NCBI GenBank assembly: GCA_017506865.1
Contig: JAFCMP010000113.1
Coordinates: 868,001 to 932,000, forward strand
Length of the DNA stretch: 64,000 nucleotides
Origin: Tribonema minus
Lineage: Eukaryota; Sar; Xanthophyceae; Tribonematales; Tribonemataceae
Reading direction: 5' to 3'
Shown: positions 3,197 through 62,700 of the stretch, piece after piece
Layout of the letters: each line of letters opens with the position of its first letter
How positions within the stretch are numbered: the stretch's first letter is position 1
The notes under the pieces: model-generated
Told to the model about the DNA's origin: nothing
The model's database searches: none
Seen by the model: the letters and a program-made list of their open reading frames with translations, nothing else
Translations under genes and position numbers: made by a program

Positions 3197-6100
3197 TCAC
3201 CGCAGCGTCTCCAGATCCGACAGCAGCGTGCGCTTGAGAATGAGGAAGTCAAAAGGCGTGTAACCGAGCACCGCGTGCGTGGCGATCCACGCCGCGTCCA
3301 AGCCGCCCGCAAACGAGTTTTCGCACAAGTCAGCGCTCGCCAGGAACAGTCCCGGAACGTGCGTCGGCGCGCGCAGCCCCGGCGCCGCCGCGCGCGCGCA
3401 CGTCGCCGACAGGCCCGGCCGCAGCTCCAGCACCGCCTGCCGCGGCAGCAGCGCAGGCAGCAGCAGCGCTCAGTGAGACGGCAGCGGTGTGTGAGACGCA
3501 TGATGTGAGGCGATGCGCATGGGGCATGGCCACTCGCGCCGCAGCGCTTGGGGGGGCGCCGTTGCCGCGTGTTCCATCGGCGAGGGAGATGTCGCGAAAC
3601 ATGGTACGATTTCGCATAGGAATCAAACTTTAACTTCATTTATTCGCAGTGAAACCCTTTTGAGGAAGCTCTGCTCGAATTGACCTTCAACGTCATCTGC
3701 ATCTGTCATGTGGTGGGTGAGCTCGGAGTATCTTTCCTCGCACTGCCGAATCACAGCTCTTTATGACATGTACTGATGTGTACCAAGTATACTGCTCACG
3801 CGTGCATGCATGGTCCGCACCGCAATCTGCAGGCGCGCAAGCTGCTCTGCATGTGCGTGGCAGCATGTACTGCATCTGTCACTGGGGGTGTGCTGCACGA
3901 GTTGAGACGCTAACACCGTCTCATTCTCATTTCAGTATACTGACAGCTGTTGTGTGCCCGACCACATGTCACTTGCACAGCTGCAGTGAGGGGGTGGGGG
4001 CAACAAAGGAGTGACTTCAGTTGGTGCCCGCGTGTAGTGTTCCAATGTGCGTGCCTCGCAACGCCCTTGGCGTGCACTGCAGAACTGCCCAGTTGTTTGC
4101 TTGTAGGCTCACATGGTGCATCTACTACATAGGTTATATGAAAACGCATCAAAAGATCGTAGACCTCTAGGTGACAAGGGGAGGTTAGCCGCAAGTGCCT
4201 TCCACCAATAACCATGGTCGCCGCTGCTGCAGCAATTGGCCACGAGTCAAACAGTACCACCGTATCCACTAGTCAAAAAGACTTCTGTGTGCAAGCTTTT
4301 AGCGTTCGAGGCATACTACGACAGTTGTTGCAAGGACCTGCATTAGGCAGCGACCGCCCTGATGATCACACACTGTGACCACCTCTTCTCCACGCCGACA
4401 TACGGTGGCAACGCGCCAACGGCAGTGTTTCGACAGAGTTACAAGATCTGATGCTTGCTTCCAGACAAGTAAAGTTGCGTACATGCCAACGCTGACCTCC
4501 TCAGCGTTGACAACGCTGACCTCCTCAGCGTTGACATGCATATATATCACTACACAACGGCTACTTCCCGACAGGTACAACACAATGCATACATACCCTG
4601 ACCACCCGCTCTGCGCCCGCGTCGCCGCACAGATGTCATGCAGCCAAAGCTCGCTTCCGCACAACTGTATCTTCATCACATTACACACCAAACTTCAACC
4701 ACCTCCTCCTCAACGCTGGCGTGCACACACAACACAAAACCAACCGCTACTTGCCGACTCTTACTGTACAGTTACAAATACATACGTACCTCCACCACCT
4801 CCTCGGCGCCGCGCGTCGCCGGGTAGATCTCGTGCAGCCGCCGCTGCATGCGCTCCTTCATGCGGTCCTTTACGCGCTCCACCGCCGCGCCCGCCTTCAA
4901 CGCGTACACCAGCGGCGCCTCGCCGTCCGCCCCCGCCCCCCCCGCAGCAGCGCTCGCCGCACCCCCCGTGACAGCGCTCACCCCCCCCCCTGCGTTCGCC
5001 CCCGACCCCCCTGCGCCAGCGCTCAGCGTCCCCCCCGCGGCAGCGCTCGCGCGCAGCACGTCGTCCGGCAGCTCGCACGTGACGACGCACGCCGTGTGCG
5101 CGGACCACCAGCGCTCTGGGTCCTTGGCGCTGGCGAAGGAGACGCGCAGCCACTCCGAGTCCTGGTCGTGGTAGCGCTCGTGCGCGCGCGCCGCGCCGTC
5201 GTCGCGCACCTGCGCCGTGAAGGAGTTGAAGTTGAAGGACCGCACCGCGAAGCAGTTGAAGTTAGGAAGTGAGGAAGGCTCGATGTGCAATACATGTTTG
5301 TACGCTGTGCGCCACGCAGGGGTTGAAGTTCAAGAAGCGTGAGGAGAGTGAGGAAAGCTCTCCATGTGCTATTCATGCTGTGCGCTGTCGTGCAGCTCAC
5401 GTCATGCTGGTGGCGCTCGTAAACGCGCTGCGCCGTCGTCGCGGACCTGCGCGCCGCGAAGGAGTTGAAGTTGAAGGACCGTGCCTGGAGAGAGCGAGAA
5501 GAGCTCTCCATGCGCTATACATGCTGTGCGCTGTTGTGCAGCTCACGTGAAGCAGCTGACCAAAAAAAACATGTGCAGTGCACGCATGTGGTACGCTGTC
5601 GTGCAAGCTTACATCAAGTAAATGGTGCACGGGAGCTGAAGTTGCTCCTTCAAAAGGGCGCGTCAAACTCATATGAGGAATGATCCGACCGCGTGCAGCC
5701 GTGTAGCTCAAGGCAGGATGGTGCTGAATCGGAGTGTTCTGTGGACTGTGCTTGATTCACTGCCCATGATCCAGCTGTATGCAATCGTGCATGCCACGCC
5801 GACGACTGGGGCGATCAGTGCACATGGCAGCATCTTGAACACTGAGCACACGTGAATTGTCCAGTGCCCTGAGAGTCCTGATCGTGGCATTGTCAGCGCA
5901 GGCACCGACCGGGCCGTAATCGCGCACATGCGCACCCTTGCGTGCAAACAAGTTGAGATTCCATTGTGAGTCTCCAAGAGAGCGCCTCGTGTGTACTTTG
6001 AGCAACTGTCTGTGTTTCAACCACAAGATGTTGTGTGATTTGTGATCCAAGCATAAGATGTTTAGGGTCAGGGTTAGGGTTAGGGTAAGTGTAACAGACA

Positions 6101-9220: not shown

Positions 9221-12200
9221 ATGGTGCTGCACTGCGGCGCGCTCACCACGTCGGCGCTGCTCCACGCCACCGCCGCCGCGCTCGCGTGCGCGGCGGTCAC
9301 CCACATGGCCTCCACCGTCCTGCTGGGCGTCGCCATAGGCTGCGCGATCTGCTGCTACCACCCGTCGTGCCGCACGTCGTCGCTGCGCGGGACGGAGGCG
9401 CTGTGCGGGCTCGCGAGCGGCGCGGCGGCGCTCGCGCTGTTCGCGACGGGCGCGTCGCCGGCGTGCGCCGCCGCGCGCGCGCTGTACCGCTTCGTCGCCC
9501 TCGTCATGGGCGCCGACGCCGCGTGGATGATCTGCAGCTTCAACGGCATTCGCATCGGGTGGTTCGGGCTCGCGCGGCACGCCGTCACAGCCTTTGTGCT
9601 CGTCCTCATGTCCGGTGACGCCGGCGCAACGCTGCCGCCCGCGCTCGCCGCCTGCGGCTTCCTCTACCTAAGCACCGACCTGCTGCTGGTCTTTGAGGCG
9701 GACTTCTGCGCGAACCCGTCGCGCCAGACGGCGGCGCCGTGGCTCGCGTTCGTCGCGCTCTTCCGCCTGCCCGTGTGGGGCTACTGCGCGTCGACCGCGT
9801 ACGCGTCGCAGTGGCGCCACGGCGGCGCCGCGGCGGCGGCGTTTGCGGCGTTCGCCGCGCTGGACTGCGCCGCCGCGCTCAGCGCGCGCATGACGCGCTG
9901 GTTCGACGCCAAGCACGCCGCCGCGTCCAAGGTGCGCATGGTATTTGGTCTTGCCCTTGTTGAAGTGTTTGCGCAACGTACAGTATGTAGGTGTAACATA
10001 GGGCATTGTTGGACTGCGCCGCCGCGCTCAGCGCGCACATGACGCGCTGGTTCGACGCCAAGCATGCCGCCGCGTGCAAGGTGCGTGCGGGCAGATGCTT
10101 CGAATTGGTCCTGCGTTTGTTGAAGTGTTTGCCCAACGTACAGTACGTGGGTAAAACATGTAGATGCAACATAGGGCATTGCTGGACTGCGCCGCCGCGC
10201 TGAGCGCGCGCATGACGCGCTGGTTCGACGCCAAGCACACCACCGCGTCCAAGGTGCCTGTGGGCAGACTACTTGGCATTTTTCCTGCATTTGTTGGACT
10301 GTTTGTGGAACGTACAGTCTGTAGGTACAGTATGTTGGTACGACATACATCTCACACTGTTGAACTATGCCAAGCGGTATGTTGGTACAGCGTACATCTC
10401 GCACTGTTGAACTATGCCAAGCGCACCGCCGCGTCCAAAGTGCGTGCTGGTGGGCATGCGGGCAGTTGTTGTTGTTCCTGCATTTGTTCAAGTGCTTATG
10501 CAACATCAAGTGCATGTAGAAGCGACATAGAGAAGTAGTTGAACTACGCCGCCGTGCTCCGCGCGCGCGCGACGGGCTGGTTCGACGCCAAGGACGCCGC
10601 CGCGTCCAAGGTGCGTGCTGGTGGGCGTGCGGGCAGTTGTCAATCCTGCAGTTATTGAAGTGTTTGTGCAATATACAGTACGTGGGTAAAGCATGTAGAT
10701 GCAACATAGGGCATTGCTGGACTGCGCCGCGCTGAGCGCGCGCATGACGCGCTGGTTCGACGCCAAGCACGCGTCCAAGGTGCGTGTGGGCGTATACTTT
10801 GTGTTTTTCCTGCGTTTGTTGAACTGTTTGTGGAACGTACAGTGTGTAGGTACAGTGCTGGTGCGACAGGAACAACATGATGAACTACGCCGCCCTGCAC
10901 CGCGCGCGCATGACGCGATGGTTGCGCGCCAAGTGCGCCGCTGTGTTCAAGGCGCGCGTGCGATGCCGTTGGCTCCGTGTTTGTTGAACTGTTTGTGCAA
11001 ACGTCATAGTGTATGTACGTATAGCGCATGCACTCTCGGGCTGAACACAACGCTCAGCATACTGGTATGACTGAGTGCGCTCTCGCAGTAATTGCGTTGC
11101 AGCATCTGTCACGAAGCAGTGAAGGGTGTGTCTCATGCGCCGAAAAGGGATTAGAATGTGCTCAAGTGCAGCAAGAGTCGCGTGCGCCAGATGTGCACAC
11201 AAGCTTGCAGCTTTAGCTTCAGCGCAAAGCAGCTGGCAGATACTTCTACATGCATCGTGTCATGGGTCTTGTGTATTTGAGCTGATGGCTCACCAGCAGT
11301 GCGCTGAGCTTTAGAGAACTGCGTACTTCTATCAAGGGCTGAGCGCCACCCGTACTAAGCCACTCCTGAAACAGATTTACTGTCAACTTGAAAGTCAACA
11401 CTTGAACCAACACACCCCTTCACGATTGTTGCTTTCACACACGCCCTAACCGTACACACAACATACTCCAAAACGCACACGCCCGGCCCCGCACGCATGC
11501 AGCGCGCCAACCCTAACCCTAACATCAACAGACGCCACTCACCCTCACCCTAAACCTGCTTACTCATTCCTTCCCCTTATCATGCCCCCCGCAGGCCCTG
11601 CCCCCCAACATGTGGGTCTCCTTCCTGGAGCTGCTTGAGATCGCGGCGCTGTATGGGCGCAAGACGGCGCGCGGCGCCGACACGCGTGCACGCCTCAACG
11701 CCATGTACAGCCTCTCCACCGAGGAGTACGACCGCTCGCGCGCGCTCACCCTCTTTGGCCGCCAGGTATGCATGTATGTATGTATATCGATGTGACAGTG
11801 CTCAACTCGTGCGCACGCCTCAACGCCATGTACAGCCTCTCCACCGAGGAGTGCGACTGCTCGCGCGCGCTCACCCTCTTTGGCCGCCAGGTATTTATGT
11901 AGGTCACAGTGACAGCGCTCATCTCTTGCACATGGCTCAACGCCATGTACAGCCTATCCACCGAGGATTAGGACCGCTCGCGCGCGCTCACCCTCTTTGG
12001 CCGCCAGGTATGTGTTGATTAGTATGACAGCGATTGTTTGATTCGTTTTCATGACTGCGCTCAACCTGTGCACGTCTCAACGCCGTGTACAGCCTCTCCA
12101 CCGAGGAGTACGACCGCTCGCGTGCGCTCACCCTCTTTGGCCGCCAGGTGTGTATGTATGTAGGTCAGTATGACAGCGCTCAACTCTTGCACATGGCTCA

Positions 12201-15200
12201 ACGCCATGTACAGCCTCTCACCGAGGAGAGACCGCTCGCGTGCTTGCCCTCTTCGGCTGGCAGTATGTAGGGTACGTGGCTGTGACAGCGCTTAACTTGT
12301 GCAGATGGCGCCTGTCTTGCGTGCTGATCGCACACCGTACGCATGTGCTAGGAAAGGCCTAAACCCTAGCCCTAGTAGCGGCAACTGATCGCAGGCCACT
12401 CTCGGCACCCCCCACCCCATGTACCACCCCTGACCACTTGACTACTGTGCTATGCCCTGCCCATCAGATCTCTCTGCTTCAAATCCATCACGACAAGTGC
12501 CCCCCCCCCCCCTCAACCCCCTCAACCCCCCCTCTCCCTCCCCTCCCCCCCTCCCCCTTCCTGCAGACCCTCATCGACCTGGTGGTCATGCAAGCAGAGG
12601 CCAAGCTCGCCCGCGCACGCGCCGGCGCGGGCGGCGGCGGTGGCTGCGGCGCCGGCTCCCTCGGCGCGTGGGTCGACATTGGTGGCGGCACTGCTCAGAA
12701 CCTGGCACTAGTGGCGGAGCGCCTGGACCTCTCGCTGTTCCAGCAGATCTACGTTGTTGACTACAGGTGTGTTGTTTTTTCCTCCTGCAGAGGGGTGCGT
12801 GGTGGTGAGCACTGATGGCGCTGCCCCCTCTCGTGCAATTGCGATGAAAGGGGGTCATTGTATTCGGGAGTTACTGCATGATTGGAAAGGGCAGCTGATT
12901 CTCTGAGTTCGCATGGGTTGCGTCCGCAAACTTATGGCAGGGCCAACTTGCAGATGAACTTTTGAGCTTATTTGCAGTTGCGATGTGCTTCACGGTCAAA
13001 CAAACATGCGTACGTAGTCGTGAGCTATAGGTATGGCGCGGCGTGCGCTGAGCACTGATGTGTGCGCCCTGCGCTTACAGATCTCATGCCTATCAAAGAC
13101 AATGTTGCAGCCTGCTTGCATGCCGCAGGCATCACAACCTGTTGTACTTGATATAATAGATCGCTCGAGGGGCGGAAAACCTGCCGTAATAGTACAATAG
13201 TAAGTAGTGCTGTTCGGAGCCTCGCTGCCTGGCTCTTCCAGCGCCACAGGTGCAGTCATTCACTTAATGCGAATCACCGATGAATCACTCGTGAATTGAC
13301 TGCGTTCATTTACCGTTCTTGCTGCGCGCTGCAGCGACGAGATGTGCAAGCAGGCCCGATGACACACCAACGCGAATCACTGATGAATCACCCACGGATC
13401 AACTGCGTAAATGTGCCGTTATTGCTGAGCGCTGCAGTGACGAGATGCTCGCGCACTCCTATTCACCCCAATCACCAATGAATCACTCATGAATTAACTG
13501 CTTTCATTTGCCGTCGTTGCTGAGCACTGCAGTGACGAGACGTGCAAGCACGCGCGCGGCCGCGTAGAGGCGCAGGTCTGGACCAATTCACCGCCCGCCT
13601 ATTCACACCAATGCAAATCTTCGTTGAATCACTCATGAATTGACCGCGTTCACTCATGAATTGACTGCGTTCATCGTTGTTGCTGAGCGCTGCAGCGACG
13701 AGATGTGCAAGCACGCGCACGGGCGCGTGGAGGCGCAGGGGTGGACCAACGTCACCGTCGTGCGCGCGGACGCGGCCACCTTTGTGCCGCCGCCGGAGGC
13801 CGGCCGCGTGAGCTTCGTCACCATGTCCTACTCCCTCAGCATGATCCCGGGGTGCGTGACGTTTACGGCAATGTTGGAAATAATTCACTTTAATTCTTGA
13901 TGTCGTCAATGACGTTGAAACAAACTGTAGGCGTACCACGTACCTTGTGGTGCAGCGCGTGCACATACTTGTACAGGATCTTGTTGGTGTACAGGATCTT
14001 GTTGGTGTGCAGCTTGCGGCAGTAGATGCCAATCTCCACCAGCGTCAGGTACAGGAGCGTCAGCGCCACGTACTGCGGCCAGCCGCCCACCTCGCTGATG
14101 CGGATTCACAGCGGTAGTGTACACAAAGAGGTACAATGTGGTGTCAGCGTGATGGTAGTACTAGATAAATGCATGGCAAGTTATATATAAATTACGATAT
14201 GGACTCGTTGTAATCGTCACCATGTCCTCCTCGCTCAGCATGATCCGGGATGCGTGGTGGCCCACGCGAAGTCGGATAATGTCTTTCTCTGTTTACTGTA
14301 CGAATAACAATTCTTTGTGCCGCCGCCGGAGGCCGGCCGCGTGAGCCTCGCCACCATGTCCTACTCGCTCAGCATGACCCATAACCCTAACCCTGATCCC
14401 AGGTGCGTGATGGTCCCAAAGAAGTTGAATAATTTCCACAATTACTGTATACTGTTTAAAAAAAGTAATGATCCTAACCCTAAGCCTAAGCTTTGTGAAC
14501 ATGTCCTACTCGCTCAGCATGATGCCCGGGTGCGTGATGGTCCAGTCAACGTTGAATTCTCTCCCCGTTAACTGTCTGAATAATGATTTCTCCCGCAGCT
14601 ACGTGCGCCTGGTCAACACCATCGCGCGCTACGCAAACGCCGTCACGTGCAGTGCATCGTACACCATGCATCTCGGAAGATGTATCAGAGATCACGCCCC
14701 TAACCCTAACCACTCCCCTCCCGCAGCTACGCGCGCCTAGTCAACACCATCGCGCGCTGCGCGGACGCCGACATGCGCACTGTACATTACATACTTCAGA
14801 AACTTCACCACATATCACGTGCACATACTTCAGAAACTTCACCACACATCACGTCTAAACCCTCACCACTTTAACCGTGACCGTGCCGCAGCTACGCGCG
14901 CCCGGTCAACACCATCGCGCGCTACGCGGACGCCGACACGCGCGTGATCGTCGCCGACTTCTTCACCTCCAAGGGCGTCGACGCGCCGCTGCCCGGCATG
15001 TTTATTACTCCTCGCTTAAGGCGTGAAAAGGCCCACTTGCTTTCAGAAGCAGTATCTGAGCTCACACCCTCACTTCAACAACCCAAACCCTATCTCCCGC
15101 AGCTACGCGCGCCTGGTCAACACGATGATCGCGCGCTACGCGGACGCCGACACGCGCACCCGTAAACCATGTACTTCAGAAAATTGTTTGAGATCACGCG

Positions 15201-18200
15201 CTAGCCCTAACCCTAACCTTAATTGCGCGTCCCGCAGCTACGCGCGCCTGGTGAACACCATATCGCGCTACGCGGACGCCGACACGCGCGTCGTCGTGGC
15301 CGACTTCTTCACCTCCAAGAGCGTCGACGCGCCGCTGCGCCAGCACGCGTGGTGGCGGCGCTGGCTCCTGCGCGCGTGGTTCGCGATAGACGACGTCGAC
15401 CTCGCGCCCCACCGCCGCGACGTCTGCGAGCAGACGCTCTCCCTCGTCTGGGAGACGAACCACATGGGCCCGCTGCTGAACAAGTCGATCGCCAAACTCG
15501 GGCCACACGTGCCGTACTACGTCGCCGTGTACATGCTGCCCGCGGCAGAGGGGGAAGGGGGGGAGAGGGAAGAGGGGGGGGACATTGCCGAGCGCTGCGG
15601 GCTGAGGGGGGCCACGCGCTACGTGTCGCCGGACCACGGCCGCTGCGACTGGGTCGCCGTGCCCAACTTCCTGTACAGGTGCGCGCGGTGTCCCTGTTGA
15701 GGTTGAAGTTGTTTGTTCACATTCTGCTACGCAGTGGCGGCCGCGTGGTGAGCTGATGTGGCATTTGTGTACTTCGACTTTCTGGTGTTTGTGTACTCTA
15801 ACTCCCAAGGCAGCAGGTACTGGGCAGGTGGCATCGCCGTGAGCGGTGCGTTGTGCGCTCTGTGTGCAGGTTGTGCAGCAGGTTGACATGTAGGGTTAGA
15901 TTTAGAGTAATTGCAGTGCATCTTCAATACATGCTTGGTGAGTATGGAAGCCCTCGTGGATCTCAATGCAGCTTGATCAGGCAACCGATTGTCTCACCAA
16001 GTTACTCTCATGTGTGCTTCAAAGTGCCTGCAATGTTACGTGAGCATGCGTGATGCTATACACTGCTCAGCATCAATACCCGGACTGACAATCACCATCA
16101 TCACCATCGGGGGGACTCCCGTGCAGCTACGCTATAAAGGACCCACATCAGCTGTCAGCCCAATGACAGCCCACATTCATGGTGTGCTGGTGGACTACAC
16201 ATCAATAAGACTGTACCTCAAAGCATGTTGCTGAGCACCGTCACCCCAACTGATCAGAAATCCTCACCCCCCCCCCCCCCCCCCCCCCAACCCGCGCAGC
16301 TACGCGATAGAGGACCCCCTGGTAGACGGCAAGCACTTGAACTTCCAGCCCGACGACAGCCTCCTCATACTCACCACGGGCGGCGACAACGTGCTGCACT
16401 GGCTCCCTAAGGTCGCGCACGTCACCGCCGTCGACATGAACGAGAAGCAGAGTGAGTGTGCGGGGAGCGTCACGTGATGAAGCTCGTTGAGTGCTGTCGC
16501 ATGTTGTTGCTAATGCACTGGCTCCCCAAGGTCGCGCACGCCACCGCCGCAGACATGAACGAGAAGCAGAGTTAGTGTGCGGGGAGCGTCACATGATGCA
16601 TTTTGTCGAGCGCTGTCGCATGTTGTTGTTGAGAATCGTGGAGGCTCCAAGATTGCACACGTCACCGAACTGTATACACGCTTGGGAAGCAGAGTGACTG
16701 CGGGGAGCGTCACGTGATGAAGTTTGTCAAGCGGAATCGCTCATTGTTGTTGAGCATCGTGGAGGCTCCAGGATTGCACACGTCACCGCCGTAGACGCGC
16801 ATGAGAAGCAGAGTGAGTGCGGGGAGCGTCGTGCGATGAAGTTCGCCGAGCGCTGTTGCATGTTGTTGTTGTTGCACTGGATCCGCCACGGCGCGCACGC
16901 CATGAACGAGAAGCATAGTTAGTGCGGGAGCGTCACGTGATGAAGTTCGTCGCGCGCCTTCGCATGTTGACGTTTCACCGGCTCCGCAACGGCGCGCACG
17001 CGACTGCTGTTGATGTGAACGAGAAGCAGAGTGCGTGCGGCGAGCGCCACGTGAAGCCTGTCCAGCGCTACCGCATGTTGTTATTGCACTGGCACTGGCC
17101 CCGCGGCGGTGCCGCCTGCAACTGTTGTCGGCGAGGACGAGACGCAGAGCATGTGCGAGGGGCGTCGCATGGTGAACTTTGTTGAGCGCTGGAAAGCGAC
17201 TTCAATGTACGTATTGGTGTGAGCCATTTCGCTGTAGTTAAAGTCTTCCTTGTAGACGCAGCTGTTAATATATGCCATCTCGCTGCAGGCGCAACTGATA
17301 ACATTGCTGCACCCCGCTGTCGCTGCAGACTACCTGCTGGAGTTGAAGTTTGCGGCGATCGCGTTCTCCGGCCTCCCCCTGCACGAGGTCCACGGCTGCT
17401 GCCTTCATATCGTTAGATTGCGAGGCCTTTATTGTAGGACACAACTCCAATGTTACTGACGGTGTCTGCTGTACCTGCTTTACCTCCAACGCAGACTACC
17501 TGCTGGAGTTGAAGTTTGCGGCGATCGCGTTCTCCGGCCTCCCGCTGCACGAGGTCCAGGACTGGCTCGAGCGCGGCAGCCACCGCGACATTGCGCGGCT
17601 CATGGGCCGCACGCTGCCGTACCTGAGCGCTGAGGCGCGGCAGTACTGGGCCAGCCACGCGTACATGATGGAGGAGGCGAGCGGCGAGGGCGGCGGCATG
17701 AACGGCCTGTACCTGGTGAGCGCTGCTGTGCGTGGTCATGTTTGTAACTAACTGCCGTAACCGGCGCAGTCATTCGTATCCATTGCTTGCTAGCAATGAA
17801 TCATAGGGTTAGGGTTAGGGCGGCGGCATGAACGGCCTGTACCTGGTGAGCACTGCTGTGTGGTGATGTTTGTAACTGACGTAACCGACGCAGTCATTCG
17901 TCATGCATGACGGAGGAAGCGAGCGGCGAGGGCGGCAGCATGAACGGCCTCTATCTGGCGAGCGTCTGTTGTTAGCGAAACTGATGTAACTGACGTCACC
18001 GTCGCAGTTTCGTTACACATGATAGAGGAGGCGAGCGGCGAGGACGGCGGCATGAACGGCCTCTACCTGGTGAGCGCACGTTGGTAAATAACGTAACTGA
18101 TGTAACTGACGTAACCGATGCGGATGTACCCTCAAGTATGACATATCGGCGGCATGCACGGCCTTCACCTGGCGAGCGCTGGGGTGTGTGGCGATGTTGG

Positions 18201-19973
18201 CAAGTGATGGCACCGAAGCGAACACTTGCTCAAGTATCAGGCATAAAATATCGATTGCTGTAACCTGACAATGCGCTGGCCACTGCCGCGGTCAGTGCTC
18301 AACCACAAGTGCTCCACTGGACTCACGCGCCGCAGCGCTCTAATCATAACCCTAAACGGTTCCCCCGCGCAGCACGGCTCGTACGGCCTGGTCCTGGCCT
18401 TCACGCGCCTGCTGTGCCGCTGGCTCGGCATGACACAGCACCTGGGCAAGGGCGACAGCACGCTCGCACGGCAGCAGGTGGCGGAGTCATGGCGCTACAA
18501 GCTCGTCAAGGCGGTGCTCACGCCGCTGTGCCATCCCACGCTCATGTGGCCGCTGATGGGTGCGTCAACCCATGATATTTGAAGTATATGATTGAAGTTT
18601 GACAAAATTGTCAACTTGTGTTGGAGTCGTGGCGCTAGAAGCTCGTCACCCCACGCTCAGTGTCGTCGCTGACGGGTGCGTCAGCCTACAATGTTTGAGG
18701 TTTATGGTTGAAGTTCGGACTGCATTGTAGGAGCGCGATCCACGCTCGTTGAAGGCAATCCTGATGTGTGCGTTTTGAGGGTGAAGGGTAGAGGGTAGCT
18801 CAGTGAATGGAGCATACAGCCGCACTTGTTTGTTTTTGGCACTCACAATGTAGTTTTTGAATTTTCGTGCAACTCCGATTATATCGCTTATATTGCAAAT
18901 TCGAAGCAGTTGCCCTCTTGTAAAGCATAATATTCACGCCCTCTGTGTCATCATGGTAGTTCTATGCTGAGTAGTCTCTTTTGTAAACAAGAGTTCAGCC
19001 TTTCTGGCGATGTTGCCTCACTGCTTGACGCTGAGGGCACAGCACTGTCGGCTATCTGAGCCTCGTATTCAGGTTAGGGCTAGGGCTAGCATTTCATTGT
19101 GAATTGTGACAGTGGCATTCCTTTTCCAGGCCTCCAGGCCACATGAAGCCACCGCTGGATGCTAGACAATGATAGTGATGCACAACGTGCCGGCTGTAGC
19201 GCTGTTGCAGCAGGGCTGCACCATTGCTCAGTCATGTGCACCACTCCGCAAGCTGCATCTGACGACACAGAGGGTGTTGCAGTAAGACCGTATCTGCTGA
19301 ATACTGCCCTGTATGCACTGCTCCACGAATTATAAGCCTCCCAGTACCTCAAGTGGCAAGTCTGAACGCCCCCCCCCCCCCCCCCCTTTCTTCAGGCATC
19401 CCGATGCACCAGCACGCGCGCATCGTGCACGGCCAGACGATGCGCGACTTTGTCAGCAACACGATCGACGGCACGTTCGTCTGGGCGCCGTGGGAAACGA
19501 ACCCGTACTCGCACGCGTTCGCCACGGGCGCCTTCTCGCGCGCGTGCCACCCCGACTACCTCGACCGCGCGAACCTCGAGGCGCTGCGCGCGGCGCCGCG
19601 CGCCGCGCTGCGCGCGCGCCTGACGATTGCGACCGCGCCGTACAGCGAGGCGATGCAGCGCCGCGGCGGCTACTCCAAGATGGTCTTCTCGGACCACCTC
19701 GACTGGCTGAGCGACGCGGAGGTGCGCGCGTTCGCCGCACAGGTGAAGGCCGCGCTGCTGCCGGGCGGCCTCGCGTCGTTCCGCTCCGCGGCGCTCGTCG
19801 CCGGCTACGCGCGCGCGTTCGAGGACGCGGGCCTCGAGTGCAAGCGCGTCGCCACGCACTGCGGCGCGGGCATGGACCGCCTCAACTCGTACGCGAGCTA
19901 CTATGTCATACGCCAGACGGAGGGCAAGGCGCGCGCTCCGCTGTCGAGCCCCAAGTTCGCGGCGTCCGGCTAG
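9221..19973 (+). CDS. BTA1: Betaine-lipid (DGTS) synthase BTA1 with N-terminal membrane domain
   Basis: Nine exons: 9221-9931, 11595-11765, 12567-12766, 13696-13851, 15238-15678, 16300-16451, 17495-17715, 18373-18559 and 19396-19973. Phases match at every junction and the sum is 2817 nt, 938 residues. Residues 1-237 form about six or seven hydrophobic helices that I cannot assign. Exons 2-5 are the BtaB-like methyltransferase, with SAM motif [12 protein letters not shown] at about 329, [10 protein letters not shown], and ending near residue 560. Exons 6-9 are the BtaA-like 3-amino-3-carboxypropyl transferase (DUF3419), with [22 protein letters not shown] then [11 protein letters not shown], and the C-terminal [13 protein letters not shown]. 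In the known pathway BtaA adds the homoserine moiety of SAM to diacylglycerol and BtaB trimethylates it. BtaB-first order is as in Chlamydomonas BTA1. The N-terminal membrane domain is unusual. Nearly every intron holds copies of exon edges. Confidence 0.93.
9862..10990 (+). repeat. BTA1: Donor-edge array, BTA1 exon 1
   Basis: The last 70 or so bases of exon 1 with the donor and about 95 bp of intron are repeated six times after the real exon. Donor positions are 9932 (real), 10081, 10254, 10440, 10611, 10780 and about 10952. The pitch is close to 170 bp. The first five copies keep GT; the last has GC. Copies share the AAG-GTGCGTG junction and a GAAGTGTTTG-CAACGTACAGTA intronic block. Copy 4 (around 10366-10450) is the most decayed in its exon part. 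Confidence 0.92.
11509..11523 (+). repeat. CCCTAA telomere-like tract, BTA1 intron 1
   Basis: Two CCCTAA units, about 70 bp before the exon 2 acceptor. Confidence 0.7.
11690..12275 (+). repeat. BTA1: Donor-edge array, BTA1 exon 2
   Basis: The exon 2 end (encoding [15 protein letters not shown] and ALTLFGRQ) plus donor is repeated four times. GT positions are 11766 (real), 11891, 12008, 12148 and about 12263, pitch 115-140 bp. Every copy keeps GCCAG-GTAT/GTGT or a close variant. Exon parts of the copies carry small changes, most in the last. Confidence 0.92.
13315..13740 (+). repeat. BTA1: Acceptor-edge array, BTA1 exon 4
   Basis: The exon 4 start with its GCGCTGCAG acceptor is preceded by three copies near 13330, 13430 and 13530. 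They share the intronic block AATCACTCATGAATTGACTG and the exon block GACGAGATGTGCAAGCA. The real acceptor is the last one, with the exon starting at 13696. Confidence 0.88.
14215..14565 (+). repeat. BTA1: Donor-edge copies, BTA1 exon 4
   Basis: Three copies of the exon 4 end, around 14217-14262, 14316-14425 and 14495-14560. Each has CACCATGTCCTACTCGCTC-like sequence, and the last two keep GGTGCGTGATGGTCC. The second is split by a CCCTAACCCTGATCCC tract that lies just where the exon end meets the donor. Confidence 0.85.
14585..15300 (+). repeat. BTA1: Acceptor-edge array, BTA1 exon 5
   Basis: Four copies of the exon 5 start, with complete CCGCAG acceptors, precede the real one. The copied exon starts would be at 14599, 14727, 14892 and 15103; the real start is 15238. 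All share CTACGCGCGCCTGGTCAAC with few changes. The third copy extends furthest into the exon (to about 15000). Short CCCTAA tracts lie directly before several of the acceptors. Confidence 0.93.
16119..16143 (+). repeat. BTA1: Acceptor-edge copy, BTA1 exon 6
   Basis: GTGCAGCTACGCTATAAAGG here mirrors GCGCAGCTACGCGATAGAGG at the real exon 6 start (16300). Confidence 0.65.
16267..16288 (+). repeat. Poly(C) run at BTA1 exon 6 acceptor
   Basis: An uninterrupted run of 22 C ends 11 bases before the exon 6 start, in the place of the polypyrimidine tract. Confidence 0.85.
16389..17190 (+). repeat. BTA1: Donor-edge array, BTA1 exon 6
   Basis: The exon 6 end (encoding VDMNEKQ) plus donor and the intronic block GGGGAGCGTCACGTGATGAA is repeated six times. 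GT positions are 16452 (real), 16571, 16694, 16813, 16918 and 17031; a decayed last copy is near 17150. The pitch is 105-123 bp. Confidence 0.92.
17314..17565 (+). repeat. BTA1: Acceptor-edge duplication, BTA1 exon 7
   Basis: The first copy (acceptor ending 17328) is almost identical to the real exon start at 17495 for about 70 bp, through CTGCACGAGGTCC. It then diverges into intron. Confidence 0.93.
17660..18190 (+). repeat. BTA1: Donor-edge array, BTA1 exon 7
   Basis: Four copies of the exon 7 end (GGCGGCATGAACGGCC then CTGGTGAGC). Donor positions are 17716 (real GT), 17846 (GT), 17958 (GC), 18070 (GT) and about 18172 (GC). The pitch is 102-130 bp. A TTAGGG tract at 17804-17820 abuts the first copy. 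Confidence 0.9.
17804..17820 (+). repeat. TTAGGG telomere-like tract, BTA1 intron 7
   Basis: Nearly three TTAGGG units, lying immediately before a copied exon 7 edge. Unlike most plus-strand introns here, the G-rich strand is the coding one. Confidence 0.8.
18488..18720 (+). repeat. BTA1: Donor-edge copy, BTA1 exon 8
   Basis: One copy at about 18628-18715 of the exon 8 end. Shared blocks are GCGCTA(C/G)AAGCTCGTCA, CCCACGCTCA, GGGTGCGTCA and the following TATGATTGAAG-like intron sequence. The true donor is at 18560. Confidence 0.85.
19369..19386 (+). repeat. Poly(C) run at BTA1 exon 9 acceptor
   Basis: 18 uninterrupted C end nine bases before the exon 9 start (19396). Confidence 0.85.
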
Positions 19974-22344: not shown

Positions 22345-25300
22345 GGCGGTGCAGTGCTCAAACTTCACGAGCCCCGTGACGGACCTGCGCAGGCGCAAAA
22401 TCGTGCAGTACGTGGGGTTTGCGGACTGCGCGGACGCGCCGGGCGGGCACGGCACGCACGTCGCCGGGACGCTCGCCGGGGCGCAGGCAGGTGGGTGGGT
22501 GTGCATGTATATTTATTATAATACATACCTGTGTACTTTTCATTCAAACTCCTAGCGCAGGGCGCAAAAAAGCCCATGCGTGGGTCGTTTTCATTGATGC
22601 TCACTTAGGGTGCAAAAGAGCCCAGATGGTGAATGTCAAGCTCGCTACCAGAATCTACGTGCATCCTGTGAACACCTTGAAAGTGTCTCAAAGCGCACTG
22701 ACGATAACTTCCAAGCGACATCGCAAGTGGCATCTCCCCCCACGCTGCATCTTCGTCCCATCTGCCCCCCCCCCCAGACTCCGCCATGTGTACTCATTGC
22801 TAATGCAATTACCACATGGCGTCCAGATCATTGTCGCAAAATCGCGCAATGCTCACCTCCGGCCGTCACCGAACCATTCTGAGTACACTATATGACCACT
22901 TGTTGCTGATCCATTACCACATATGGCGTCCAGATCATTGTCGTGAGGTCACGCAATGCTCATTTCAGGCCATAACCGAACCACTCTGAGAACACTACAC
23001 GACTACTTGTTGCTGATTCAGTGCCACATGGCGTCCAGGTCTTTGTCGCAAAATGACGCAATACTCAATCAGGCCCCAACCGAACCGTTCTGAGCACACT
23101 ACACGGCTACTTGTTGCTGATCCATTACCACAAGGTGACCAGCTCTTCGTCACAAAATCACGCAATGCTCACCTCAGGCCACAACCGCACCATTCTGAGA
23201 ACACTACACAAAATGCTCACCTCAGGCCACAACTGAACCGCTCTGACAACACTACACGACTGTGCCCCCTCCCCCCCCCCTCCCCGTGTTGCCTCAACAG
23301 GAGCGACTGCGGGCCGACACCTCGGGGACGGCATCGCGTTCGACGCAAAGCTCGCAGTCTTTGACCTCGGCGCCAGCGACGGAACGCTGCTCACACCTGC
23401 GGATCTCAAGGCGCAGATGCTCACGCCGTCGTACAAGGGCGCCGGCGCGCGCATCAGCAACAACTCGTGGGGCGCGATCCGCAACACGTGAGTGCTTGCC
23501 GCGCCCGCCACGCGCCGCGCCTGCCACGTGCCGCGTTGAAGTTGCTGTCTGGCATATCACCCTACCTTCAACAGCCGACTTCAAACCTCATCCTACCCCA
23601 CCGTTGTACAAGGGCGCCGGCGCGCGCATCAGCAACAACTCGTGGGGCGCGATCCGCAACATGTGAGCGCTAGCCCCGCGCCCCCTGCCCCTTCGCGCCG
23701 TATTGGCACGCTACATGTGTACGCAATGCAAAGCCCTTTGTTACGAAGTTGAAGTTGAAGGCGCTGCGTGGAGACTGCACGGAGAAAACTTCAAACAACT
23801 CGTGGGGCGCGATCCGCAACGCGTGAGTGCTTGCCCCGCCCTGCACACGCACACCCCGCCGCACAGCCCTTATTTGCAGCGTTCAAGTTGCTGCCCGGCA
23901 CACTACCTGCCCTTCAATTCCCAACTTCAAACCCCATGCTTCCCCCCCCCAGCCCTTCACCCTAGACACACAAGGCTAGATGGGCCGATGGACATGAGGG
24001 TGTACAACAACCTCAAACGCTTGAACCCGAACCCTAGCCCTAAACTCGATCTCTGATCGCCTCACTTCAAGTCCATCACAGGTCCACCCACACTCGACCG
24101 GCAGATGGACACGTGGGCATACAACAACCTTAACGCTCTTCCAAACACGCCAACCCGATCCGTAACCCCAAATCTGATCTCTAAATCCTAACTTCAACCC
24201 TGATTTCAACCCCACCTCAGGTACACCACGCTCGACCGCCAGATGGACAGGTGGGCGTACAACAACGCCGACGCCGCATGTGCTGCAGACCTCACCTCCC
24301 CCACTGTTTTGCATGCCCCACTGTTCTGCAAAGCCTGACTCTAACCCAAACCCTTACCCTAACCCAAACCCCATCCTACCCCCCCCACCCCTACTCCAGG
24401 TACACCACGCTCGACCGGCAGATGGACATGTGGGCGTACAACAACCCTGACGCCGTCCTCGTCGTCGCCGCCACCTTCCCCACTGTTTTTCCTGACTCTA
24501 ACCCTAACCCTAACTCTAGCCCTAACCCTCACCCCGGAGCCCTCACAATACCCCCACCCCAGGTACACCACGCTCGACCGCCAGATGGACATGTGGGCCT
24601 ACAACAACCCCGACGCCGTCGTCGTCGTCGCCGCCGGCAACTGCGGCGACAAGGGCAGCGGCTGTGCGGGCGGCGCGGGCCAGCTCGCAGGCGCCGGCTC
24701 CGTCATGTCGCCCGCGCTCGCCAAGAACGTCATCGCGGTGGGCGCGTCGGAGAGCGCGCTGGGGTCGGCAGCGCTCGGCGGCGACGTGGACAACGTGGCC
24801 TACTTCTCTTCGCAGGTGAAGTTGTTGACCGTGGGCTGCGCTCGCGTGTGGCACGCGCGCTGAGAGGGCGCACCCCTTACCTCCGTCCTAGGGCTAATCA
24901 TTCTGGCCCTGATCCGTTGCGTTCTGCGGCAACGCTCAGCACCAATGTCACTACCCCTCAGCAGCACCTTTGTGTCCCAATGGTGCAACGTGGCCTACTT
25001 CTCGTCGCAGGTGGGGGCGCTTGGTCGTGGGGGTTTTGTGTCGGCGTGCTGGCGTGTGGCGCGCTCGTGTTTGTGCGTGCGCTCGCTGAGAAAGTGCAAC
25101 CCCTGCCCCTGCCCCCAATCCTTACCCTGAGAACTGCGCGGCGAGCGCTCTGCGACGGCGTCGCCGCTGCGACTGTTGCAGCCCTCAACTCAACACCGAT
25201 CATAAACCGCAGGCAACCACACCGGGGTGGCCACATCAAGCCCTACATGGTGGCACCTGGCCATCACACGTGGCACAACCCTGAGCGTGACCCTAGCCCT

Positions 25301-36678: not shown

Positions 36679-37035
36679 GTTGGTTCTTGTGGAAGAAGTT
36701 CAAGGCAGCAGCAATTGAAAAGTGTCAAAGAAACGTTTCCGCAGGAGCAGTAGCGCTCCTCGCTAGCTTGAAGGCAGCCTGACTGAAGGCAGCCGACAGG
36801 CCGAAGCAGGGGTCCTGAAGGTCCACTTGACGCTCACCAGCACTACCGCTGCGGGCACTGCTTCAACGCTCTGTGAAAAAGTCTTCACTCGGCTACTGCC
36901 TCATTGTCGAACACGGCGCCCGCCAGGTCTTTTTGCTTTCTTCCCTCCAGCAACGAACTTCAAATTGAGGCCTGCAAAAACGGTTGAGCTTGTAGCTCCT
37001 AGGTAAACAGAGAATGCGCCACAGGGGGCGAGCCC
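36679..37035. other. Short divergent promoter region
   Basis: These 357 bp separate the divergent starts of the coiled-coil gene and the WW/ankyrin gene, so they probably work as a bidirectional promoter. GAAGGCAGCC occurs twice around 36770-36793. No TATA box seen. Confidence 0.45.
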
Positions 37036-37802
37036 ATGAGTGTAGTTGCACCAGCGCACCTTGCTCGTCCGCAGATCGGCACAATCTCAAAGTCAGGATT
37101 GCAAGATCGGGAGTCAGCCCCATTCTTTAATCCGCAGCAGCGTCGAATGCAACAGGTTGCATCGGATCTTGCAGACAACAACGATTCAAAAATGGCGTCT
37201 TCAACAAATGATGCTGCCGAGGTTGATTCTACCATCCTCAAGGCAACTAAACAGCCTCTGCCGGCTGCTGCTGACGCTGAGATCACCGCAATGGCACCAC
37301 AAACTGAAGTGCTCGTGATCGCTGACTACGCGGCCCGGCCAGGACGGAAGACAGAAGAGCGCCGAATCACAAAGGCCACCGACACTCTGACCGGCAGTAC
37401 TAGTGCTCAGCATCCAGAGGTGGCAGTACGAACTGTAAGACCGGAAGCTGAGAGCGATGAGCATGCGGCTGCTGCTACCGCCACTGCTGCAGATGCTGCA
37501 GTCATGCCGAATCGGCCAGAATCACCCATACAACAGGCTCTGGTGCACAAAGCAGACAGAGCAACGCAGCAGGCACAGCCAGATGCTGCTCCTGCCACTC
37601 TCGCCTCACAGCCTGCGTCGCAGATCCCGGTGCTGTCTGACGTACCCACACTGAGCACTGATCGAGCAGGACATTCACAGCAGCAGCATGAGCAGCAGCA
37701 GCATGAGCAACAGCAGCAGCACCAGCAGGAGCAGCAGCAGCAGGAGCAGCACCAGCACCAGCACCAGCAGAAGCAACAGCAGCAGGAGCAACAGCAGCAG
37801 CA

Positions 37803-37836
<34 letters not shown>

Positions 37837-40800: not shown

Positions 40801-41427
40801 GCGGAGGCTGCCTCGGGTGAGGCGATCGGGAGGCAGCGTTCGGTGCGCGGCGGCGGCGTGGCGGGCAGCGCGCGCGCGCAGCAGCGCGGCGTCAGCGGCC
40901 CCGACCGGCACGCTGCGGAGCGCAGCATTGAATCCAGCAGCACCTGGCATGGAGCGGCGGGCGCGCAGAGAAGGCCTGCGCAATCAGGTTCTCCCAGTGC
41001 TGGCAGTCCTGTCAGGCGGCGGCACAGGCGCAGGGGCAGCGGCGACGCCTCCAGCGCTGCCGCCGCGGCAACCAGGCACTGGGGAGCGGCTGCCGCTGAC
41101 GCTGCTGCCGACGAGCGCAGCGTCTCTGACTTGTACGGCCATAGCGGCAGCGACGGCGGCGGCAGCGGCACTGGCGACGACAAGGCGGGGTCGAAAGCAG
41201 CGGGGGGGCGTGATGGGCGGGGGGGCGCGTGGTACGGCAACTTTAACTTGCGCCCGGGGCAGCAGCAGGCGGCCAGCGGGTGGGGAGCGCCTGCAGGCCC
41301 GCTCACGCCGCCGCCAGGCGAGCCTGGCCCGTCACCTGCTGACCTGTCAGACCAGCCAGAAGTTGAAGTTGAAGTTGAACATGGCGGCGGCTGGGGGATT
41401 GTCGGCAGGGTGCTGGGAGGGTGGTTC

Positions 41428-41458
<31 letters not shown>

Positions 41459-43328: not shown

Positions 43329-45335
43329 TCACTGCAGCAGAACGGCAATGACGGACGTGTCATCGTCCGAGCCGGAGCGGATAGCGTTGCCGACAACCGC
43401 CTCGGCGACGTTGACCGTCGTGAGCGCTTTCGCCTGGCGCTTCATGCCGGCCTTGAGCGCCGCCACGACGTGCGCCGTGTCGCAGAAGTCCCAGACGCCG
43501 TCGCTCGCGAGCAGCAGCGCGGCGGCGTCGCCGCGCGCGAGCGGGCGCAGGTGCACGACCTGGAACTGCGGCCGCGCGGAGAGGACGCCGGGCGCGAGGC
43601 AGTGGAAGTCAAGGTCGCCGAGCGCGCGCGTCGGCAGCAGCACGCCCAGGAGGCGGTTGTCCACGAAGTGGCCGCCGGCGGCGCACACGCGCGCAACCTC
43701 GTCGGGGTTCATGCAGTTGTGGCGCGCTGCGGAGGGGGGGGTGGGGGGGGGTGGGGGGGACGGGGTGAGTGCGGAGGGGCCGGGGGGCGTGGGTTCAGAG
43801 TTGAAGTTATGGCCCGAGTTGAAGTTTGGCACCGAGGGATGCCGCGCCGCATGGAGGTGACAGCGAGCGAGTTTACGCACAATGCCATAGCTTCAAGGGC
43901 ATGTGTCATAGGTGAATGAGCCCTGCTGCTTGCGGTCAATGGGGTGCAGGCGCGTCGTGCGGGGAGCGTATTGCAGGCTGCGCATTCGCACGCGGCACAG
44001 AGCTGCTGCATGGCTGCAACGCCTTCTCTCTTCGACAGCTAAACTGTTGCTTCGTCGTGGCTTGCTGTTGTGCAGTCCAGCTATCTGCCTCAGTTGACTC
44101 CCCTCCTCTCGCTGCCCCTCGTCAGCTCTACAGCACCTTCAGCAGCAACTTCAACCCGTGTGTGTTCGGTTGCCGTTGTGACAGAGCGATGCGCACTGCA
44201 GATCCTCGTGACAGCTGAGATCCTCGTGACAGCTGAGGCGACGTGATGCCGCCACAAGCAGTTGCGGGCACCGCGCCCTGTGCACCCAACTCAAATCCCC
44301 TCAGCAAATGCTGGGCATGCCTGGGTATTGCAATTTGACTGCAGTACACTTCTGTTACTTCATTTTGAGTCACATGCCCTCCCAGGCAACCAAAGCATTA
44401 ATGGCGTACTCCCAGTCAATGAGTGAGTGCGCAAGTCGATGCTTCAAAGGTCTGCAACTAGACCCAGCTGGCATGTATGGGGGGAACAACGACAGTTCGC
44501 TGAATGCCCAACACAATCACGCCTTGACCATACGACCACTGTTACACAATGATCTACAGATGCGCCTCACACACAGCTGACACCGCCGTCCTAGGGGTCA
44601 GCGTTACGGGCGGCCTGTTGCTGACCCTGACTCTGCGTAGTTGATCGCTGTGATGTCAGTGCACAGTTCCCGGTTCACCAGGACCACTGCCACCGCACCA
44701 TCAACCCCTCCCGCCGCCGCAATGTAAACTATAAGACCGCCGCGACATCACAACAATCATCCTTCACAAAGACCACTACTAACCCAGACCCTAACCTTAG
44801 CCCTCACCTGTGCTCCTCGCGGACTGCTTGTCGCCCTCCTTGACGTCACAACAGGCATCCTTCTCAAAGACCACTAATAACCTAGCCCTAATACTAGCCC
44901 TCTCACCTGAGCTCCTCACAGACTGCTTGTCGCCCTCCTTACCGTCACAACAATCATCCTTGACGAAGAACTAATGGCCTAACCCTAACCCTAACCCTAG
45001 CCCTCTCACCTGTGCTCCGTACGGACTGCTTGTCGCCCTCCTTGACGTACATGATCGCCTTGCTGTCGCCGAGGTTCGCCGTCACCACCACGCCGTCGCA
45101 CACCGCCGACACCAGCGCGCACGCGCCGCTGCAGTCCACCTCCGCCGCGCCCGCCTCAAAGTCGCCCGCCGTGCGCGCGAACGCCTCCTCCAGCGCGCCC
45201 ACGAGAATTCTTTCTAGCGTGCTCGCGTCGTGCGGCAGCGCGCCCGGGAGGCCCTCCCACGCGGCCGCGCGGCGGAAGTGCTCCGGGAAGACCTTCACCG
45301 CGGCCTTGGCGCACGCCGCGCCGCCTTCGTGACAG

Positions 45336-59760: not shown

Positions 59761-62700
59761 TTATGACCAACCCTCTTCAATTTCGCCAATGCCGTCGCCG
59801 TACTGCAGCAGTATGGCGCTGACGTTGTCGGCGTGCGGGGGGTGCCCCCAGCATGCGTCCTCCGCTGCGCGCCTGTCGAGATGTGCGAGAGGCGACGCGG
59901 TGCGTCACTAGTGTCAGTAACTTCAATTGTAGCTAAAGTTTTGACTGCGCAGCTTACATGCCATCAAGGTGCTCTCATAAATCAGATGTCGCGTGGCGCA
60001 ACGCGCACCGGTCTGCCAGCAACAAGAAGTCGAAGTACACATTCTAGGTCGGCATGCGCAGGGTGCCCCCAGCACGCGTCCTCCGCTGCGCGCCTGTCGA
60101 GATGTGCGAAGCACCGCGGTGCGTCACTAGTGTCAGTAACATCAAGTTGAAGAATGGGGTTGATTGCGCAGCTCAGATCCGAATGAGGTGCTCTTGGGGT
60201 CTGGTGTGAAGAGCGGGGTGTGCCGGACTGTCAGTAACATCATGCTGAAGTACACAATCTAGATTGGCGCTTGCGGGGGGGCTCACGTGCCTTGTCCGCT
60301 GCACGTCTGTCGAGCTGTGCGGCGCACGCGCCGCCGTTGTGGGTGTCGCTATATTGCACTACATATTACCATCGGCCTACATGTGATCAAGGTGCTCTCG
60401 TGTTCAGCTGTGATGTCAGGCTGTAACATGGACAATGCAGGCTGCTGGCGAGTAAAGCTGAGATCAATGCCTCATTCTTGTTGAGTGGCTTTCCGCCTGC
60501 CGCGTTTGTGTGGATCCTGGCGCTCAATGGGGTTCTGCCGACATGCTCTCCACCCTTGAACTGAACAGCATTGAACCAGCCGCCTGTGCAATCTCAGCAT
60601 GTGTCCACATACTTGAAAGTACTGCAACAATTATACCACACAGTTGCACTTGCAGAATCTGATGACCTTTGGATCACCTGCGAGAGTGAATGGCCACTCC
60701 GAAGCAGCATTGCTCCACCCGCCAACCAAACCTACAAGCATGCATACCCTATATGCATGCATAGCAGGGGGTCAACTGTCCCCTCCCCTGTCCCCCGTGC
60801 ACCACTGCGTCCTCTACAAAAGCACGGTTCAGTACAATCTTTTGGTACCTGCAAGACCCCGCATACAGTTGGCTGATAGACGACGAGTGATTTGCGATTC
60901 TCATGAGACTAGAGTCAAGGTCAGGGTCGTAGTGAAGGTGAAGACAAGGTCTGCAAGCGTGGAGACCCTCCCCTTTTCACCTATTCCCCTGGCATCCCCT
61001 CGCCGCTGCTCGTGGCAGCAAGTATAAACCTTTTGTCTGTAGCATCGCCACTGCAGGCACAATGCAGGAGCACCACCCTACGGCGCCTACCCTAACCCTA
61101 AGTGCACTCTCTGCGCAAACACTGACACACGCGCGCGTGCCGACTCACATGACGAGCGACTTGCACGTACGCAGCAGCACGGGGTCCTCCCCCGCATGGC
61201 GCGACGCCCCCAGCGACCCCCCCCCCCCTCCCCCCTCCCCCCCCGCCCCCGTGTCCCCCTCGTCCTCGTCCGCGATGTCCTCCAGCACGAGGCGCTCGAG
61301 CGCTGCCGCCATGCGCCACACGGGCACCGCGTCCCACACGCCGTCGCTCGCGAGGATGACGACGCCAGCGCCGCCGCCGCCGTCGGTGCCGAAGCCGTCG
61401 AGCTCGACGCGCGAGAGGCGACCGTGGCCGCAGATGAGCGCCCCCGGCAGGCCCCCCAGCGGCGCGCGTTTCGCGTAGAAGTCGCCGTACGCGCGCGTGA
61501 CGAGGAGCCCCCCTGGGTAGACGCGCGGCTTACGCGGCGCGGACTTCCAGGGGACGCAGCAGAGGGGGGGCGCGCGCACGCGCCGCGCGCGCCCGCGCAC
61601 CTGGAGCTTTGCAGAGAGTGGGCATGTAGGTATGTGAGAGTGAAAACGCGTGTCTGCGCGGTTCGTGTGCGCGTGCTGTGTGCTTGTGTGTGTGGGGGGG
61701 TGTGTGTGCGCGCGGGTGTGTAAGCGTCTGCAAGGGCGTGCGCAGCATGGCACTTGCAGTACAGTTGCGCGAGTTTGCTGCGACACAGGGCCGCCTTCTA
61801 TGACGCCATGCATGTGTATCTCCTTGTCACGCTGTATTGCAAGCGCACTGTCTGTTATTAAAACACAGCCCTTATCCTACTACTTCGTAGTAGTAGTGAC
61901 GGAGTATGAAACCTACATACCCTACTTGCATGTGTATGCATACCTGCACAGGTTCTCACCACAGTGGAGTTACTCTGGTTAGTCCACCATGTACTGGAAC
62001 AGCACCAGTTCAGTACTGTTCCGACCCTGCGTCAGTACTGTTTCTCCACTTGCACAAGCATCTACATAATAATCACTTCTTTGCAACACCAGCCTGCCCC
62101 GGTCTAGTGCTGTTCTGCACTTTGCATTGGGTCCACCTTGGGTGTCCTACTCTGCCACGGTGTTTAGTTTCGTCAAGTAGATTTGCACATAGCAGAACTC
62201 ACTAATGAGGTTACCCCGACCCGCTGCAATGCTTGTGCCCTAGGGTCAGGGGTAGAGTTAGGGTTAGGGTTAGGTCAGGGTCAGGACATTCGTCACTGAA
62301 GTCTACATGTGGGGTTGGCACCTGAGCGTTCGGATTAGGGATAGCATTAGAGTCAAGGTGGTATTAGGCTCTGATCTACTATTGAGGTTGATATAACTAT
62401 TGAATGAGGGTTGGCACAATCCCGCAGCATTGCACAGGCGCGCCAGCCCTTGGTGTTCAGTGCCGTGATTCTCTCGTGCTGGGGTGAGATAAAGTTTGGG
62501 ATTAGGTTCAGGGTTCAGGACAGGGTACCCCGGTGCTTCGAATGCACCCAACTCCGCGCTGTTCAGCGCGCAGTGATGCTCAGCCTTGAAATTGAGGTTA
62601 GGCTTGAAGTCAAGTTACTAGCAAGCCGGGCATGTACCTCCGCGCTGACGCTGCGTATGCGGCCGTTTTAACGCGTCGTGATTATCAGAAGAAGGATTCA

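Follow-up and report, generated by a model that had tools for sequence, protein, structure and literature searches.

The introns of a BTA1-like gene of the xanthophyte alga Tribonema minus carry tandem copies of the edges of the gene's own exons. The gene lies on the forward strand of a 64,000-nucleotide stretch of contig JAFCMP010000113.1 (positions 868,001 to 932,000), which we call the window and whose coordinates are used throughout. Edge arrays span 5,017 of the 7,936 bp of BTA1 intron sequence (63%), and 'intron growth', a term offered in a preliminary description of this DNA, fairly names the outcome. We read the arrays as mirage-type tandem repeats, neutral, anchored on an exon and lengthening the introns in which they lie, and put the probability of this reading at roughly 0.78.

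The gene model comprises the following.

9221..19973, forward strand: BTA1-like gene, nine exons, with a methyltransferase domain and DUF3419 (Pfam)
9221-9931, 11595-11765, 12567-12766, 13696-13851 and 15238-15678, forward strand: exons 1-5
16300-16451, 17495-17715, 18373-18559 and 19396-19973, forward strand: exons 6-9

Joined, the nine exons give a conceptual translation without an internal stop. Pfam places DUF3419 at residues 556-919 of the protein and methyltransferase families at about 327-453, each as one unbroken stretch, and six of the eight junctions, located from exon lengths, fall within these matches, in one case with just four residues to spare. Pfam supplies the families only; the name BTA1 is that used in the preliminary description. 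At the N-terminus (9221-9931), about 300 residues precede the methyltransferase domain, the first 240 of them hydrophobic by eye, and the Pfam search returned no match for this region.

Each of the 16 internal edges was aligned locally to its own intron, and its best score compared with those of 300 dinucleotide shuffles. Ten edges scored above all 300, namely the donors of exons 1, 2, 4, 6, 7 and 8 and the acceptors of exons 4, 5, 6 and 7. These are exactly the edges for which the preliminary description had reported donor copies downstream and acceptor copies upstream, so that both the pattern and its anchoring at splice sites were rightly seen. For the remaining six edges the score was reached by 6 to 228 of the 300 shuffles. 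A BLAST search with exon sequence only (E ≤ 1e-3; exon 5 start placed two bases late) recovered 28 intronic copies, 26 of which come within four bases of the edge, while two end 13 and 51 bases short of it.

In total BTA1 holds 33 edge copies, one to six per edge as had been counted. Their spacing is about 97-211 bp counting every copy, in line with the pitch of 100-210 bp given earlier, except that the first exon-4 donor copy lies about 400 bp away. Copies are found in all eight introns, at least one in each, where seven of eight had been reported; the copy in intron 5 is only 26 bp long. It scored 20.0 against a shuffle maximum of 15.3 and was missed by the exon-only BLAST. The copies are distributed as follows.

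9932..11018, forward strand: intron 1 array, six exon-1 donor-edge copies (10010-10080, 10181-10253, 10390-10439 (partial), 10540-10610, 10716-10779, 10881-10951)
11766..12309, forward strand: intron 2 array, four exon-2 donor-edge copies spaced 116-140 bp (11805-11890, 11931-12007, 12068-12147, 12183-12263)
13266..13695, forward strand: intron 3 array, three exon-4 acceptor-edge copies, exon-like part from 13335, 13438 and 13533
13852..14590, forward strand: first half of intron 4, three exon-4 donor-edge copies, ends 14249, 14402 and 14529
14599..15237, forward strand: second half of intron 4, four exon-5 acceptor-edge copies (14599-14650, 14727-14778, 14892-14998, 15103-15157)
16119..16144, forward strand: intron 5, one short exon-6 acceptor-edge copy, site and exon-like part from 16127
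16452..17191, forward strand: intron 6 array, six exon-6 donor-edge copies, ends 16570, 16693, 16812, 16917, 17030 and 17148
17325..17398, forward strand: intron 6, one exon-7 acceptor-edge copy, 70 exon bp at 96% identity
17716..18219, forward strand: intron 7 array, four exon-7 donor-edge copies (17817-17845, 17906-17957, 18017-18069, 18147-18171)
18623..18683, forward strand: intron 8, one exon-8 donor-edge copy, end 18675

Intron 4 is wholly spanned by arrays, and intron 5 by none, its lone copy falling under the array threshold. The outermost copy of each edge is the one joined to the full exon, as described before. If the open frames are a guide, it is the outermost site that splicing would have to pick, and exon definition or proximity would be the simplest way to do so. 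The position of the copies on the intronic side, the inclusion of the site and the outermost true edge had been presented as oddities. All three are to be expected of tandem duplication that spares the exon, the first two because only exon-sparing duplications survive, and by themselves these features call for no special mechanism.

What is repeated is in each case the edge of the adjoining exon, in local tandem and with a sequence that changes from edge to edge. This bears on whether mobile intron-like elements (introners), known from algae, or other transposons carrying splice sites might be responsible. Elements of this sort would suit the apparently unrelated filler between some copies, and introners occur in a minority of eukaryotes (PMC9860276). 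A genome search with a single query, the exon-1 unit, skipping common words, found one weak match elsewhere. We regard a mobile origin as extremely improbable. The match itself (G000:C457:722977-723037) is 61 bp long and 83% identical to the BTA1 exon-1 edge, and is either a paralogue exon or due to chance.

Repeats of this form have a name, where the preliminary description knew of no named class. Tandem repeats across exon-intron boundaries were called mirages in the amphioxus Adh3 gene and globin genes BflGb6 and BflGb9 (PMC3087553), and further ones are reported in PGBD5 and troponin C (PMC3902484). Duplication affects 5' as well as 3' boundaries, as it does in BTA1, where six donor edges and four acceptor edges are copied. 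BflGb6 units measure 150-160 bp and occur in several copies that are 81-100% identical, and many, not all, mirage copies keep their splice signals. The testable defining features are present here: the repeat unit spans the exon-intron boundary, donor and acceptor boundaries can both be duplicated, and the unit is of minisatellite size, 109-231 bp here being longer at the upper end than the 10-160 bp reported. Mirages are further marked by regular splicing that is left undisturbed, and by length instability between haplotypes with concerted evolution inside the cluster. On the first, what is seen here is the open, domain-continuous frame of the outermost edges; on the second, in a single assembly, the likeness by eye of non-adjacent units in intron 1. 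We therefore place the BTA1 arrays among the mirages and not in a new class; their host and abundance are apparently new. In these papers mirages are reported gene by gene and from one animal lineage, though they have been called possibly general in cephalochordates. The alga differs in that 20 of 39 sampled multi-exon models carry edge arrays, with up to ten donor copies at an edge (L006), in the end-to-end coverage of intron 4, and in that the neutrality of the copies was measured. Mirages across a genome, or in an alga, did not appear among the literature matches listed by title and start of abstract, which is weak evidence.

Two further phenomena are close. Intron gain by tandem duplication, AGGT or junction-spanning, is described in Drosophila (PMC2891723) and in a potato RdRp gene, where the duplication crosses an intron-exon boundary (PMC4974935). 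There too exon sequence is duplicated in tandem with splice sites, but a new intron arises, whereas here it is existing introns that seem to lengthen. The variable internal tandem repeats of human segmental duplications are likewise minisatellites, some of them at exon-intron boundaries, and can alter introns; they differ in having units of about 30 bp on average and in that half of them lie in coding sequence (PMC2812944).

To place BTA1 in context we pooled 246,558 bp, partly chosen and not random, from an assembly of 158 Mb in 554 contigs: the window, 12 fixed-position 10-kb stretches and 16 loci bearing kinesins (L017-L033, leaving out L031 because of its overlap with L027). A self-trained codon hidden Markov model gave 48 gene models with 164 exons and 116 introns after filtering, which removed called exons shorter than 25 nt or copying a longer neighbour, and models with fewer than 150 coding nt. 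Self-comparison of the pooled set yielded 73 duplicate clusters. Under a strict rule (12 bp on each side of an internal edge) these comprise 31 edge, 14 mixed, 13 intron-only, 13 intergenic and 2 exonic clusters. A loose rule, admitting terminal edges and requiring 2 intron bp, gives 46 edge, 13 intron-only, 9 intergenic, 2 exonic and 3 other. Under the loose rule, with three poor arrays counted in, edge arrays occur in 34 of 116 introns and in just over half of the multi-exon models, 19 models being without one. Such arrays thus seem common in this genome. Within the window, the following lie outside BTA1.

5169..5558, reverse strand: edge array, acceptor of predicted exon ending 5209
23426..24635, forward strand: edge arrays of the next gene model, donor of exon ending 23487 and acceptor of exon starting 24563
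24791..25031, forward strand: edge duplication, donor of predicted exon ending 24815
44737..45048, reverse strand: edge array, donor of predicted exon starting 45010
59827..60327, reverse strand: edge array in a minus-strand gene model

At kinesin loci L024, L028, L032 and L033, edge copies adjoin exons placed independently by PF00225. In L024 (C511), PF00225 positions 13-94, 97-280 and 280-327 fall in three true exons, and an intronic donor copy matches 73-95 only; in L028 (C246), a copy matching 268-311 comes after a match to 191-311. At both loci the outermost edge is the one that preserves protein continuity. Other kinesin loci (for example L018, L019, L021 and L025) show no such array, and kinesin family matches alone are too coarse for a genome-wide count of edge copies. 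The densest example seen is L006, where, at the loose copy threshold, the exon at L006 8725-8886 has ten donor-edge and seven acceptor-edge copies on its opposite sides (arrays at about L006 6248-8785 and 8828-9787). This threshold (172 copies) includes chance matches, 38 of 257 edges matching a reversed-intron control against 86 of 257 matching real introns; the figures below for codon positions, splice-site retention and spacing come from a stricter score. Assembly errors are common at tandem repeats, and the arrays were read from one assembly. Copies nonetheless differ from the exon and from each other by roughly 5-25%, with indels, and recur at many unrelated loci, as misplaced reads would not produce. 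We give an assembly artefact almost no credence.

The intronic copies drift neutrally, like debris. Over 85 copies, exon and copy differ by substitutions at 0.072, 0.076 and 0.163 per site at codon positions 1, 2 and 3. Across the 21 arrays with at least two copies each, changes private to one copy are spread over the three positions as 51, 66 and 71 (p = 0.18), changes shared by two or more non-unanimous copies as 4, 9 and 26, and sites where the exon differs from all copies as 4, 0 and 9. Evenness of the private changes with a third-position excess elsewhere is the pattern expected of neutral copies beside an exon that changes synonymously. It follows that copies can retain old synonymous states of the exon, which these data support.

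Copied splice sites are lost at about the neutral pace. GT is kept in 44 of 54 pooled donor copies and AG in 27 of 31 acceptor copies, where copy drift of 0.072-0.10 per site predicts 81-86% retention. A decoy or alternative splice-site system, in which copies are kept for regulation, had been raised in the preliminary description, and many copies do carry a complete site flanked by 40-70 nt of exon sequence; in BTA1 alone, GT survives in 18 of 24 donor copies and AG in all nine acceptor copies. The pooled retention is that of drift alone, the private changes betray no coding constraint, and in BTA1 the use of a copied site would cost the frame or run into a stop in 32 of 33 cases, all but the exon-5 acceptor copy at 15103. 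We therefore regard selected decoys as highly unlikely. Special preservation of the exon-derived half was also considered and dropped as mostly an effect of ascertainment. Among copies found by their exon half, copy-copy identity is 0.807 in the exon part against 0.669 (21 arrays). The bias reverses when copies are found by their intron half, with substitution divergence of 0.185 in exon and 0.155 in intron (34 copies).

Within arrays, copies hold edge, splice site and intron in register at a median spacing of 147 bp (10th-90th percentile 109-231 bp, n = 85). Breakpoints are shared: four of five exon-1 copies break at 71-73 exon bp and nine L006 donor copies at 44-61. Non-adjacent units can be more alike than neighbours (by eye, for example in intron 1), both as expected of unequal exchange or slippage in ordinary arrays. 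Of two copies, the nearer is more often the more exon-like (84 against 51 of 135 informative pairs, permutation p = 0.029; 49 against 22 without L006), so that age tends to increase with depth in the intron. Any tandem history starting from a fixed end would give the same order.

These features suggest a simple course of events. The arrays are minisatellites whose unit straddles the junction and joins some 60 bp of exon edge to the splice site and a length of intron. If a duplication broke once within the exon and once within the intron, the true exon would stay intact while a copy of its edge was set in the intron, and later unequal exchange or slippage between similar copies would add units. 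The net effect would be that introns lengthen from their ends by neutral duplication. In plants, tandem duplications from paired-nick or patch-mediated break repair could supply founders of about this size, sometimes with filler, though they are not known to be tied to splice junctions.

Telomere-like CCCTAA/TTAGGG hexamers occur at 14380-14399, 15204-15219 and 17804-17820 and in other introns, and some of them abut or interrupt edge copies. The second exon-4 donor copy (end 14402) carries an 18-nt telomere-like insert, and such sequence abuts the exon-7 donor copy at 17817-17845. On the sense strand of introns the hexamers reach 0.60 and 1.01 per kb, against 0.16 per kb in intergenic sequence, values that are uncorrected for clustering. 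They are possibly traces of break repair, or else branch-point-like sequence. Some of the apparently unrelated filler that separates copies may be decayed homology.

Arrays favour edges over intron interiors. Duplicate coverage runs nearly level through introns up to the junction, at 0.17-0.26 on the donor side of the intron and 0.245 in the last exon bin; 100 nt inside the exon it is down to 0.09. With a 147-bp unit, permitted placements amount to 25.7 kb at internal edges and 51.6 kb inside introns. For this comparison the edge count was matched by leaving out nine arrays at terminal or doubtful edges and the low-identity, mostly exonic repeats at window 36179-36459, L007 492-812 and L015 5046-5332. 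The result is 34 edge against 13 intron-only arrays, 4.3-fold per placement after a detection factor of 1.21 (p = 2e-6). Without BTA1 the counts are 27 and 13 (3.5-fold, p = 1e-4), and under a strict overlap rule 28 and 13 (3.6-fold, p = 8e-5). Intergenic arrays are rarer still, with 9 in 111 kb.

Such an excess, the intergenic rarity and a clustering of exon overhangs near 60 nt would all be in keeping with junctions acting as mutational hot spots (for example through nicks, R-loops or nucleosome edges) that duplicate a segment of preferred overhang and drive intron growth. What speaks against it is the age of the excess. The edge to intron-only ratio is only 1.5 among datable arrays with non-exon divergence of at most 0.12 (3 against 4 arrays, p = 0.69) and 2.0 at most 0.20 (9 against 9, p = 0.14), and rises to 3.0 at most 0.25 (15 against 10, p = 0.009). 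The broad spacing does not fit either. We consider hot spots unlikely, and give about the same weight to the fuller proposal that a junction-linked process (chromatin, nick or R-loop) repeatedly copies about 60 nt of edge with its site, so that introns lengthen from both ends at a rate set by gene structure and each keeps a time-ordered fossil record of the past synonymous states of its exon. A true junction excess of up to about two-fold is possible.

The concentration of the edge excess in diverged arrays points instead to anchoring. The exon would serve as a master unit: because selection keeps its copy intact, an edge array would stay recognisable, and could be re-seeded, after an intron-only array had decayed. 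Most of the edge bias would then consist of older arrays kept visible by having one end in an exon under selection.

Several observations weigh against the mirage reading in this anchored, neutral form. The simulated detection advantage of edge arrays is only 1.21-fold, below what the trend with divergence needs, so anchoring would also have to act by re-seeding. The counts of young arrays are small, and in 9 of the 34 matched edge arrays the aligned non-exon part is too short for dating. Acceptor-side duplicate coverage rises again deep in the exon, to 0.18 at 160-180 nt. Among nearest copies, exon overhangs are grouped around 60.6 ± 17.8 nt (n = 40) and not evenly spread (Kolmogorov-Smirnov p = 5e-6, against a uniform range set from the same data), a clustering that random breakpoints leave unexplained. 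Some copies pair exon halves of about 95% identity with non-homologous intron flanks, as in L032 and at 17325-17398, where homologous intron is limited to 4 bp, and this is not plain contiguous duplication. Anchoring also leaves the rarity of intergenic arrays unexplained. Finally, outside BTA1 and the kinesin exons the models are predictions of a self-trained gene finder.

Boundary repeats are a known but little-studied kind of repeat, and a genome with mirages in about half of its sampled multi-exon models is a natural experiment on a large scale. To judge from the predicted frames, splice sites nearly identical to the real one, and flanked by tens of bases of exon context, appear to be ignored when they lie 100 or more bases from it. 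They could help to weigh exon definition against local sequence in a lineage that has been little studied. The arrays further provide genes with an internal neutral clock, and they show a concrete way, open to testing, in which introns lengthen.

Some further features of the sequence were noticed. The genome holds a large light-harvesting family, with 92 exon matches to PF00504. A 4.9-kb open frame with extensive internal triplet-type repeats occupies 37003-41913 and is probably a low-complexity coding exon. Runs of at least eight C lie at -70 to -5 of the acceptor in 17 of the 86 pooled introns of at least 300 bp, compared with none of 86 downstream of donors and one of 86 in mid-intron. Examples from the window are as follows.

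16267-16288 and 19369-19386: poly-C acceptor tracts
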